59,949 bases of DNA from Blastococcus mobilis (GTDB lineage: Bacteria > Actinomycetota > Actinomycetes > Mycobacteriales > Geodermatophilaceae): positions 1 to 59,949 of the forward strand of contig NZ_FZNO01000027.1 of NCBI RefSeq assembly GCF_900188025.1. Direction: 5' to 3'. The notes beneath the pieces were generated by a model that was given only the letters and a program-made list of their open reading frames with translations, ran no database searches and was not told where the DNA came from. Both the position numbers and the translations under genes were made by a program. Shown here piece after piece: positions 570-7,378 of this stretch. Numbering within the stretch: position 1 is the stretch's first letter; every line of letters starts with the position of its first letter.

Positions 570-2645
570 TCAGTCCGGCCGGACCGCCGCCTTGAAGAAG
601 TAGAGACCGTGCCCGTCGAGTTCGGTGAACGGGTTCTGTCCCTGCCCCTCAGGGACAACCTCGTCGAGTCGCATCGCCCGGGCCCCGCCGAAGGGCAGGG
701 GCCGGAACGGCATGGCCGGCGGGTCGCCGCCGTTCATCGCGGCGATCAGGTCGGCCGGCGACGTCCCCGCGGGAACCCGCTGGGCGTGAACGTGCAGGTG
801 CGGAGCGCTGGAGGAACCTGAGTTGCCGAGCAACCCCAGGCGTTGTCCCCGGGCGACCACACGGCCGGGCACGGTGAGAGCGTCGGGCACCGAACCGCTC
901 CGCAGATGGGCGTAGAGGACTAGCTCGTCACCGTGGAGGATCCGCAGGCTGTTGCCCCCGCCGCTGCCCAGGTGCCAGGCGATGAGCTTCAGGGCCCCCG
1001 CGTCGGTTCGCACCGCGGTGACGACCCCGGCCCCGTGTCGACCGACCGCCGTGACCGCTACGAGGTCCGTGTGCCCGGCGCGGCCCTCCCCCCACAACAC
1101 GATCCGCTCGTCATCGGTGTCGTACCGCCACAGGAGCACGCGCAGCGTCCCGTCGACGGTGACCGCCGTGACGAAGGAGTTCTCGAACGTGGCCGCCGCC
1201 GCCACCGTTCCGACCGGCTCCCAGGTCGTCGTGGTCACCGCCTCGATGCCCCCGTCGTCCCGGCCGATGCGCCACACCCGGATGTCGAGCCGGCCCGACG
1301 CCCCCCGAGCGCACGTGGCGACCGTTTCCGGGCTGAGCCGCGTGCAGGCGAGGTCCGTGACCGGCCCGGCAGCGGCCGAGGCGCCCCGGGTGAGGGTCCG
1401 CCCGTCCGCACCAACACGCCAGCTGATGAGCTTGAGTCCGTTCTGCTCCGTGCGGACGGCGGTGACGAACTGCCTGCTGCCGAGGCCGACGACCGCGACG
1501 TCCCGCACCTGGCCGGCGAATGCGTGGGCCGTGAGGGAAAGTTCGGCCCCGGCGTCCTCCCAGACGATGACCCGCAGCGCGTCCTCGGCGGTCGCGACCG
1601 CGGTGACGAACCGGCGCCGGTCGAGCGCGGCGAGCGACAGCCGCAGGACCGCGCTCGCCGTCCGGCTCGCTGCGGGGGTCGCGTGGGTCCCGTCGGCGGA
1701 GACCGACCACACCGTGACGTCGAGCACGCCGTCCGGCCTTCGGGCCGCCGTGGCCAGGCGTGTGGCGGTCAGCGCTTCGGCGGCGACGTCGGTGACCGGG
1801 TCCGTGCCGGCCTGTCCCCGCCGGATCACCTCCGCCCCGTCGTCCTCCAGGTCCCAGACGTCGAGCTGGAGCCGTCCCCGCCCGGACCGGCGCACGCTGG
1901 CGACACGCTCGGAGGACAACCGTGCGAGCGCCATGGCGCTGACGCTGCCGGTCGACGCGTCCCCGCGTCGTTGCACGACCCGTGTGCCGGGTGAGGGGTT
2001 GTCCTCCCGGTCGTTGCGGCCGGTGATGACGGCTCCGTCCGCCATCGCGTACACCGGTGTGCTCCAGGCGCGCCGGCCGGCGTTCGTGTCCCGGTCCGCT
2101 CCCGGTCGGAAGGGGGTGAACTCCTGCTGATCCGGGTCCCAGCCCTGCACACCGATGTCGTAGCCGAAGAACTGCTCGCCGCCGGTGTGACGTCGGTTGT
2201 GCGTGAAGTACTCGTCCGTCTCCAGATCCGCCGCGCGGCCGGGAAAGGCGTAGCTGCCGGCCGGGACCCCGGATCGGTGCGGCCGGAGTGGGCGCTCGAT
2301 CTCCTTGGGCTCGTCGAACCCGTTGAAGGACAGCCGGACCCGGACGACGGCCGGCAGCTGGCCCTCGATCCTGATGGCCTCCGACGGCGCGAGGTACACC
2401 GTCTCGGTCGCGCTCGCGCCGATGCGCTGGGATCGGGGGATCTGGGCGGTCAGGTCGGGGCGTCCGGGGAAGAGCACGTCGATGCGGCTCAGGACGACCG
2501 CATCGGCCTCGTTGTTCTTGATCCTGATGCGCAGCCCCATCATCGCGAGCGGAGCCGCTCCGGCGCGCTCCGGTGCGATGCGCAGGCAGACGATGCTGCC
2601 GGCCACATCCGGCTCGACGGAGAACGTGATCGCGGGAACGGTCAT
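570..2645 (-). CDS. M23 peptidase-fold protein with a seven-repeat propeller-like insertion
   Basis: The 691-residue product has an N-terminal beta-rich segment (about 1-125) and an M23/lysostaphin-type domain cut in two. The first part, near residues 155-210, has YDIGV and VYAMADGAVI. The second, near 566-625, has LYAHL (His580) and HLHVH (His616, His618). Between them lie seven repeats starting near residues 247, 296, 345, 392, 441, 490 and 540, a spacing of about 49. Their pattern is a (F/V)xTAV stretch, a Gly-Leu, a hydrophobic strand ending in W, and an acidic-Gly turn. Seven such units suggest a seven-bladed beta-propeller. No signal peptide or membrane segment is visible, so the location is unclear. 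The usual M23 HxxxD histidine is Phe159, so zinc binding may be altered. ATG at 2645 has no strong ribosome binding site. The M23 fold is well supported; the propeller and any activity are inference. Confidence 0.8.
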   Translation of the reverse strand: MTVPAITFSVEPDVAGSIVCLRIAPERAGAAPLAMMGLRIRIKNNEADAVVLSRIDVLFPGRPDLTAQIPRSQRIGASATETVYLAPSEAIRIEGQLPAVVRVRLSFNGFDEPKEIERPLRPHRSGVPAGSYAFPGRAADLETDEYFTHNRRHTGGEQFFGYDIGVQGWDPDQQEFTPFRPGADRDTNAGRRAWSTPVYAMADGAVITGRNDREDNPSPGTRVVQRRGDASTGSVSAMALARLSSERVASVRRSGRGRLQLDVWDLEDDGAEVIRRGQAGTDPVTDVAAEALTATRLATAARRPDGVLDVTVWSVSADGTHATPAASRTASAVLRLSLAALDRRRFVTAVATAEDALRVIVWEDAGAELSLTAHAFAGQVRDVAVVGLGSRQFVTAVRTEQNGLKLISWRVGADGRTLTRGASAAAGPVTDLACTRLSPETVATCARGASGRLDIRVWRIGRDDGGIEAVTTTTWEPVGTVAAAATFENSFVTAVTVDGTLRVLLWRYDTDDERIVLWGEGRAGHTDLVAVTAVGRHGAGVVTAVRTDAGALKLIAWHLGSGGGNSLRILHGDELVLYAHLRSGSVPDALTVPGRVVARGQRLGLLGNSGSSSAPHLHVHAQRVPAGTSPADLIAAMNGGDPPAMPFRPLPFGGARAMRLDEVVPEGQGQNPFTELDGHGLYFFKAAVRPD

Positions 2646-2868: not shown

Positions 2869-3294
2869 TCAGCCCCAGCTGCTCACGCGACGGGTGAACC
2901 ACACGATCACGTCGCTGACCGCGACCTCGCCTGAGCCGTGCGAGGCGTCGGTCGAAAAGATGATCTTGCTTCGTCCCGAGTGCAGGTGACTCGGCTTCAC
3001 CGCCTCGAAGACGGCACGGGAGACGGTTCCGCCCAGGGTGAACGAACTGGCTTCCCGGGTGGCGCCGCTGTTGTCCCGTACCGACACCGTCAGCTTGACG
3101 TCGTCCGCGCCGTTCGACGGGTCGGCTCGGTAGGACAGGACCGGCCAGTACCGGACGTCACCGTCGTCGAGGACGATGTCGTCCGGCGGGTCGAAGGTCA
3201 GCTCCTCGGTCTCGTGCAGACCGTCGGCGTCGATGCGCGGCAGGACGAACGCGGCGTCCTTCAGGACGTTGTAGAGGGTGAGGTTGCGGGCCAT
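2869..3294 (-). CDS. Small beta-rich hypothetical protein
   Basis: About 141 residues, beginning MARNLTLYNV. I chose the ATG at 3294 because GGAGGAAGGCAG precedes it at good spacing; an in-frame start further upstream (3414) would add a basic, low-complexity leader with no such site. The protein is rich in strand-like alternating hydrophobic residues (for example VKLTVSVRDN and VAVSDVIVWF) and has no signal peptide, membrane helix or cysteine. It may be a beta-sandwich. I do not recognise a family. It lies directly upstream of the M23-propeller gene on the same strand with about 220 bases between, so the two may be co-transcribed; a functional link is only inferred. Confidence 0.65.
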   Translation of the reverse strand: MARNLTLYNVLKDAAFVLPRIDADGLHETEELTFDPPDDIVLDDGDVRYWPVLSYRADPSNGADDVKLTVSVRDNSGATREASSFTLGGTVSRAVFEAVKPSHLHSGRSKIIFSTDASHGSGEVAVSDVIVWFTRRVSSWG

Positions 3295-6562: not shown

Positions 6563-7378
6563 ATGAACGCTGGACGGAGATCGCTCGGACCCCTCGTGAC
6601 ATGCGGCGCCCTGCTGCTCACTCCGATTCTGTGGCCCGGGCCTGCGGCGGCCAATACCCCACCGCAGGACCCGCCCCGGGTGATCACGCCCCTGGGCGCC
6701 GCCACTCTGGAGGGCTCCAAAGGGCTCTACCGGATTCCCTACGCCGATGGCACGCGGGTGCGCGTGACCCGGGACGCCGAGACCCACAGCCCGGTGCGTG
6801 GCCGCCTCGACCTCGTGGGGGTCGGCGGCCGGGGTCCCCACCAGGTCGTGGCCGCAGACGCCGGGCGGGTCGTGGCCATCGAGGACGGCAACACGGTCCA
6901 CTCCGAGCAGCACTGCACCCGCACCTATGCGCCCAACAACTACGTGTGGATCCGGCACGCCTCCGGGGAGTGGACGAAGTACTCGCACCTGTCCCCCGGG
7001 TCGGTGCGAGACGACGCCGGCCTCAGCGAGGGGGACGTCGTCGAGCGCGGCACGTTCCTCGGCTACGAGGACGACATCGGCTGCGCGGATGGCGTGCACC
7101 TGCACTTCGAGGTCGCTGTTCCCGACGATCCGGCCGACCCGTTCGAGTCCGCCGGCGGCTTCATCGACGGACACAACCGGGCGCCCGCATTCTGCGGCGA
7201 CGGCGTGGTCGACCGGACGCTCGTCGCCGGCAGCACGTACACGGCAACGACATGCCGGCCGACGCGCACACCCGGACTGCCGGTCCTGGGAGACGTGACC
7301 AGCCCGACACGGACGACGCACGGAACCACTGCCCGCGGCCGCCGGCCCGGACACCCGGCCGCCCCCTCATCCCGCTGA
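6563..7378 (+). CDS. Secreted M23-family metallopeptidase
   Basis: 271 residues with an N-terminal signal peptide (hydrophobic core about 12-30, ending AAANT). The catalytic domain has a first metal-ligand pair, His75 and Asp83 in HSPVRGRLDLV, a YSHL motif at about 140-143, and HLHFE with His179 and His181. M23 enzymes are zinc endopeptidases that usually cut peptidoglycan cross-bridges or peptides; the target here is unknown. Several cysteines (118, 174 and two near the C-terminus) suit an exported protein. The final 40 residues are low-complexity. GGGAGGCGACG precedes the ATG at 6563. Genes for small secreted proteins lie on both sides. Confidence 0.87.
   Translation: MNAGRRSLGPLVTCGALLLTPILWPGPAAANTPPQDPPRVITPLGAATLEGSKGLYRIPYADGTRVRVTRDAETHSPVRGRLDLVGVGGRGPHQVVAADAGRVVAIEDGNTVHSEQHCTRTYAPNNYVWIRHASGEWTKYSHLSPGSVRDDAGLSEGDVVERGTFLGYEDDIGCADGVHLHFEVAVPDDPADPFESAGGFIDGHNRAPAFCGDGVVDRTLVAGSTYTATTCRPTRTPGLPVLGDVTSPTRTTHGTTARGRRPGHPAAPSSR

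Follow-up and report, generated by a model that had tools for sequence, protein, structure and literature searches.

A predicted seven-bladed propeller in a groove-wall loop of an M23-type peptidase domain from Blastococcus mobilis

An M23-type peptidase domain from Blastococcus mobilis is predicted to carry, in place of its loop 2, an entire WD40-like propeller of seven blades. The protein concerned, here called P0001, is the 691-residue product of an open reading frame at positions 570–2645 (reverse strand) of the window, that is, of the whole 59,949-nucleotide stretch analysed. We found no description of an M23/LytM protein associated with a propeller or a WD40 domain in the open-access literature, which is not proof of its absence from print; in its accessible part, PMC12419801 describes no M23 domain with a propeller, the word propeller does not occur in a review of the M23 family (PMC9662197), and no title concerning M23 stood among the listed papers on domain insertion and propellers. 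According to the available sections of the report on EnpA (PMC8269130), M23 peptidases are believed to owe their specificity to the loops lining their narrow groove. P0001 would show how far one of these loops can extend, and offers a direct way to ask whether a small peptidase can be controlled by a binding domain inserted in it.

The gene and its split M23 domain

The P0001 gene starts with an ATG, and its coding score and GC3 (0.90) fit a real gene. The frame remains open for 79 codons 5' of this ATG, but none of them is a usual start codon. Inspection by eye of both the ATG start and these upstream codons revealed no signal peptide. On the same strand, upstream of P0001, a small protein (2869–3294, reverse strand), again with no signal peptide by eye, matched no family in Pfam, PADLOC, or PHROGs and nothing in plasmids, and its single NCBIfam match, at 11.9 bits, falls far under the cut-off of that model.

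In Pfam searches, M23 was the sole family over its cut-off (PF01551, residues 555–622, E-value 4.2e-10, 40.1 bits for a curated cut-off of 28.7), and the match covers the C-terminal piece of the domain only. The NCBIfam and PHROGs matches, which are to M23-type or phage tail and lysis proteins, also all lie across the C-terminal part, and a PADLOC search returned no match. The assignment of the N-terminal piece to M23 comes instead from alignments with two uninterrupted relatives, which at the level of sequence support the proposal of the first-pass annotation that the two outer pieces belong to one M23 domain. One of these relatives is a protein from a genome of the same order (G263), identical to a Thermocrispum agreste DSM 44070 protein across a 275-residue query, in which a P0001-like N-terminal domain is followed by an uninterrupted M23 domain; the joined outer pieces of P0001 share 34% identity with it. 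The other, from Candidatus Fermentibacteria, aligns on both sides of the P0001 insert, which falls between the strands PVYAMADGxV and NSLRILHG, the aligner having put four of the relative's residues inside the insert.

These alignments and the structural model delimit the parts of the protein outside the insert, all encoded on the reverse strand. Residues 1–122 (2280–2645) form an N-terminal domain shared with the Thermocrispum relative; it contains only strands in the model and by inference would be a beta-sandwich or Ig-like domain. The N-terminal part of M23 (residues 146–215; 2001–2210) holds the strand PVYAMADGAV and two candidate zinc ligands, a displaced His153 and Asp163, while the C-terminal part (residues 563–640; 726–959) holds the YAHL (His580) and PHLH (His616, His618) motifs. 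It is followed by a tail (residues 641–691; 573–725) modelled with low confidence.

The stretch from the valine of the xDGxV motif to YxH spans 372 residues in P0001 (Val206 to Tyr578, from alignment positions) versus 25–48 in 15 other, hand-anchored M23 domains, a set that leaves out the second M23 protein of the window and L024, L027, L029, L068, and L069. From the order of the sequence motifs rather than from a superposition, our reading is that the insertion point corresponds to loop 2 of M23. In the available sections of the EnpA report, loop 2 lies between strands 4 and 5 and is one of the three that line the groove; the subsites at the scissile bond are bordered by loops 1 and 3, so that loop 2 sits further along the groove (PMC8269130). 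In lysostaphin, the groove walls are formed by loops 1–4, of which loop 2 is the most flexible, as stated in the accessible text of PMC4286107. His580 lies 17 residues past Gly563 in P0001, and the part of the EnpA report at hand likewise places His78 of that enzyme 17 residues past the end of loop 2 (PMC8269130).

The canonical HxxxD motif is absent from P0001, which has a phenylalanine four residues before the aspartate and histidines 10 and 14 residues upstream of it. His580, His616, and His618, in the YxH and HxH motifs, are invariant in two alignments (A6 and A8). Of 20 loci examined, 16 yielded an M23 domain; sorted by eye, seven of these 16 have the standard histidine at Asp-4 and nine lack it; all nine have a histidine 16–21 residues upstream of the aspartate (several in the Fermentibacteria protein, L031), and their loop-2 stretches are of 32–48 residues versus 25–29 in the six standard domains measured. 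Because these nine relatives also lack the histidine at Asp-4, we describe P0001 as an M23 fold with a displaced histidine and, given their longer loop-2 stretches, it seems to be the extreme case within a group of M23 domains with altered groove loops. Zinc would be held in P0001 by Asp163, His618, and the displaced histidine, most likely His153, and the site would also include His580 and His616. The model has pLDDT values below 50 at residues 125–171 and 173–192, which include the histidine and aspartate candidates.

A group of M23 proteins within the same order (L005, L006, L008, L009, L010, L022, and L026) has a CC pair, a histidine 20–21 residues before the zinc aspartate, and a loop-2 stretch of 40–48 residues. 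The window itself encodes a second M23 protein (6563–7378, forward strand; Pfam), with a signal-like N-terminus by eye; it also lacks the histidine at Asp-4 and has, by eye, a histidine eight residues upstream of its candidate aspartate.

Repeats and predicted fold of the insert

The M23 domain of P0001 had been described from its sequence as split by seven regular repeats of about 49 residues, which was confirmed, the split lying near residues 219 and 563. When residues 226–565 were compared with themselves at offsets of 20–119, similarity was maximal at 49 (mean BLOSUM62 score of +0.148, as against −0.186 for the best offset anywhere in 1000 shuffles). A profile built from the repeats found seven copies, six of which coincide with full sets of predicted strands: blade 1 (residues 234–282; 1800–1946), blade 2 (283–331; 1653–1799), blade 3 (332–378; 1512–1652), blade 4 (379–427; 1365–1511), blade 5 (428–476; 1218–1364), and blade 6 (477–524; 1074–1217), all on the reverse strand. 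The seventh, blade 7 (528–563; 957–1064, reverse strand), has three strands of its own, its fourth being supplied by strand 221–224. Because the profile was made from these same repeats, it shows their register and is not an independent proof of them. Pairs of blades share 22–47% identity (mean 32%), and a tryptophan is found in the third strand of all seven. No Pfam model corresponds to these repeats, and no WD40 match was listed at E-values up to 10, HMMER filters dropping most matches above 0.1; searches of PDB sequences with the propeller gave nothing significant, WD40 or other.

AlphaFold2 was run on P0001 with an alignment of nine rows, in which the eight relatives cover the outer pieces only, apart from some loop residues misplaced into the insert by the aligner. 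The resulting model has a mean pLDDT of 71.1 and a pTM of 0.60; of the five models, three scored poorly (52.7–56.0), and the single sequence without alignment gave a mean pLDDT of only 37.8. Between residues 231 and 560, 29 of 33 ten-residue blocks have a pLDDT of 70–91, and the other four of 58–69. The model contains 27 strands from residue 238 to residue 559, arranged in seven groups, and strand 221–224 is assigned in place to complete blade 7, with a pLDDT of its own below 50. Since this segment is predicted to give blade 7 its outer strand, the insert begins at about residue 219 (insert start, residues 219–229; 1959–1991, reverse strand), and the limits of 231–560 in the first-pass annotation should be widened to about 219–562.

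A Foldseek search of the PDB with this model returned 948 matches at E-values up to 0.001. The best 50 (1e-11 to 8e-10) are mostly propellers of the WD40/DDB1 type, as judged by title, and among them single propellers reach a TM score by target of 0.68. This value is attained by chain F of 6tbl, from a CIAO1 complex (E-value 2.2e-10, 4.6 Å), a chain that we take to be CIAO1 itself. Chains B of receptor–G-protein complexes, presumably G-beta, score 0.59–0.66. No title among these best 50 names an M23 peptidase, and the search therefore speaks for the propeller only. Against viral models, there were 193 matches at E-values up to 0.001, the best 50 of which, many of them nameless, name no M23 peptidase either. 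The seven four-stranded blades of the model and their WD40/DDB1-type matches support the earlier suggestion of a seven-bladed propeller. Neither an open array of repeats nor outer pieces that fail to make one M23 domain, the outcomes named beforehand as contrary to that suggestion, was found, closure depending in part on the low-confidence strand 221–224 and the single M23 domain on the sequence alignments.

Relatives of the propeller and of the M23 domain

When the propeller by itself was used as a tblastn query against plasmids, at E-values up to 10, a single record was returned (E-value 0.3), from a plasmid of Bradyrhizobium barranii, a root-nodule bacterium. The protein, WP_166107148 (P0003), is annotated as an M12 family metallopeptidase and has a Pfam astacin (M12A) domain at residues 11–182, the zinc motif of which reads as intact by eye; no signal peptide was seen by eye. 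The rest of this protein aligns end to end with the propeller of P0001 at 28% identity, including the segment that corresponds to strand 221–224. The phmmer score of the propeller against it is 37.3 bits (bias 11.9), whereas 1000 shuffles gave 9.3 bits at most. Its own repeat is weaker: seven blade hits are spaced by about 50 residues but score −2.3 to 3.5 bits each, the blade profile reaches 18.2 bits by a narrow margin over the best of 1000 shuffles (15.9), and self-similarity beats the best of 500 shuffles at an offset of 103 but not at 50. Given the strong score of the whole region and the weakness of its own repeat, the relationship to the P0001 propeller is well supported and the count of seven blades less so. 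The repeat region thus appears to sit on two unrelated metallopeptidases, inserted in M23 and appended in astacin. Beside the astacin gene, a protein cut by the edge of the locus (L063:1-1794) carries trypsin-like and DNA/RNA endonuclease domains, the trypsin-like part matching four PADLOC models.

No second copy of the full P0001 architecture was found in searches of the order, family, phylum, plasmids, phages, contigs, or viruses. At an E-value of 1e-8, whole P0001 matched eight of 397 genomes of the order, among which, besides its own, only G263 matched beyond the C-terminal M23 piece; at 1e-6, it matched 14 of 112 genomes of the family, all but its own within residues 510–651. Across the phylum (296 genomes), the propeller, the blade profile, and, at 1e-15, the Thermocrispum-type piece comprising the N-terminal and M23 domains each matched the Blastococcus genome alone. 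There was no match in phages and none in plasmids at 1e-3. In scans of genome contigs, the full protein matched none of 29 stretches and its outer pieces two of 10, whereas viral scans gave 2 of 42, 0 of 8, no match, 0 of 92, and 6 of 38 (the last used for the M23 rows). One viral match, L032, holds an ordinary M23 domain, and another, L033, was rejected as it is antisense to a long phage-like frame.

At E-values up to 0.05, the blade profile matched 62 of 394 genomes of the class: the Blastococcus genome seven times, 60 genomes with one weak match each (the best in G207, 4.2e-4), and G191 with two matches that lie apart (0.007 and 0.033). The 61 genomes other than its own were judged to match by chance from scores and spacing alone; open frames were listed for one of these loci, L034. 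A two-propeller profile matched three of 202 genomes, and the two at E-values of about 0.005 were likewise put down to chance.

Two relatives of the P0001 M23 domain carry a different repeat, BTRD1. There are five BTRD1 stretches behind M23 in the Thermocrispum agreste protein (L004/L030; L030:4689-6998) and four in front of M23 in the Fermentibacteria protein (L031:3261-5480); Pfam detected none in P0001. BTRD1 was considered as a possible propeller and rejected: its namesake, the N-domain of a polyglycine hydrolase, has five helix-strand repeats in a barrel-like fold according to the part of PMC9912923 available to us, the link of this domain to the name BTRD1 resting on the Pfam description.

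Possible roles and comparison with known systems

The most economical reading of these data, which we hold to have about an even chance of being right, is that P0001 combines an N-terminal all-beta domain with an M23-type metallopeptidase, the loop-2 propeller of which is a portable target-binding domain, or exosite. Because the propeller starts and finishes in a single loop next to the groove, it would keep a bound partner or substrate close to the groove and restrict the peptides that enter. Loop 2, which carries the insert, is part of the groove wall, and this makes a binding face above the active-site groove plausible. Several points weigh against the exosite: a phenylalanine stands in place of the canonical HxxxD histidine; the apparent lack of a signal peptide would be unusual in a peptidoglycan hydrolase; in EnpA, as far as the accessible text goes, loops 1 and 3 and not loop 2 wall the scissile-bond subsites (PMC8269130); the propeller has one relative only, with a weak repeat of its own (WP_166107148); and three of the five AlphaFold2 models are poor, with residues 125–171 and 173–192 below a pLDDT of 50. 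The related region found on an astacin points to a mobile recognition module with no Pfam name, as searched here, and its occurrence on M23 and on an unrelated protease suggests that peptidases can acquire it as a plug-in module for targeting. In a bolder form, which we consider doubtful, the repeats would be an undescribed propeller family, a recognition cassette that can be swapped between leaderless metallopeptidases from different clans; P0001 would carry it in its groove wall, target binding would open or close the active site, and the protein would act as a sensor-protease, either in its own cell or after delivery to a different one.

Alternatively, the propeller may be a general adhesion or localisation domain lodged in a permissive loop, which tethers P0001 without shaping its choice of substrate. 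This is a possibility to be held tentatively. The repeats of the astacin relative lie behind the catalytic domain and not in a loop, so the module does not have to sit at the groove; BTRD1, which follows M23 in one of the two relatives and precedes it in the other, and the walls of the EnpA scissile-bond subsites, formed by loops 1 and 3 in the available sections of PMC8269130, point the same way. However, the P0001 propeller is fixed at both ends in a groove-wall loop, and a steric effect on the groove would be hard to avoid. We find it unlikely that P0001 is instead a degenerate, inactive M23 scaffold with the propeller as its working part, comparable to the regulatory EnvC and NlpD. The missing histidine at Asp-4 and the low confidence of the model around the candidate histidine and aspartate would fit such a scaffold, and, according to the consulted part of a review (PMC9662197), M23 proteins that lack motifs or zinc serve as hubs for other proteins. 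On the other hand, Asp163, His580, His616, and His618 are all present, and nine of the 16 M23 domains lack the Asp-4 histidine while having one 16–21 residues upstream, these relatives not being mutually independent; a displaced ligand may thus be a property of the group. The simple loss of the first zinc ligand was set aside once the upstream histidine had been found in these nine, and is kept as part of the inactive-scaffold explanation.

Finally, P0001 could be a chimera or misassembly fusing unrelated coding pieces, since its gene ends 570 bases from the start of the window, which is also the start of the contig, and the searches found no second copy of its full architecture. This is very improbable: the gene is a single open frame without stops, GC3 is similar across its three segments (0.90, 0.92, and 0.85), the insert starts and finishes at one loop, and blade 7 is predicted to take its outer strand from the opposite end of the insert, as a complete domain would.

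P0001 can also be compared with known systems. Like the M23 peptidases lysostaphin, LytM, EnpA, and ShyA, P0001 has a PF01551 match over the cut-off, an aspartate ligand, and the YxH and HxH motifs; its sequence matches to TagE and ShyA (E-values of about 5e-4) and to lysostaphin (0.015) are weak. It differs from them by its first histidine, which is not at Asp-4, by some 344 residues in loop 2, and by the lack of a visible signal peptide. The insert has no Pfam WD40 match at E-values up to 10 and no significant match to PDB sequences, unlike WD40 propellers, but resembles seven-bladed ones such as CIAO1 and G-beta in its predicted fold and in the tryptophan of the third strand of every blade. 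In WP_166107148, the repeat region follows an M12A astacin domain, whereas it is inserted in a loop of P0001. The Thermocrispum agreste protein differs from P0001 in its uninterrupted M23 domain, with BTRD1 behind it, and in a signal-like N-terminus by eye, while sharing the N-terminal domain and an M23 domain with a displaced histidine; like the P0001 propeller, BTRD1 is a repeat module paired, in two relatives, with an M23 domain of the P0001 type.
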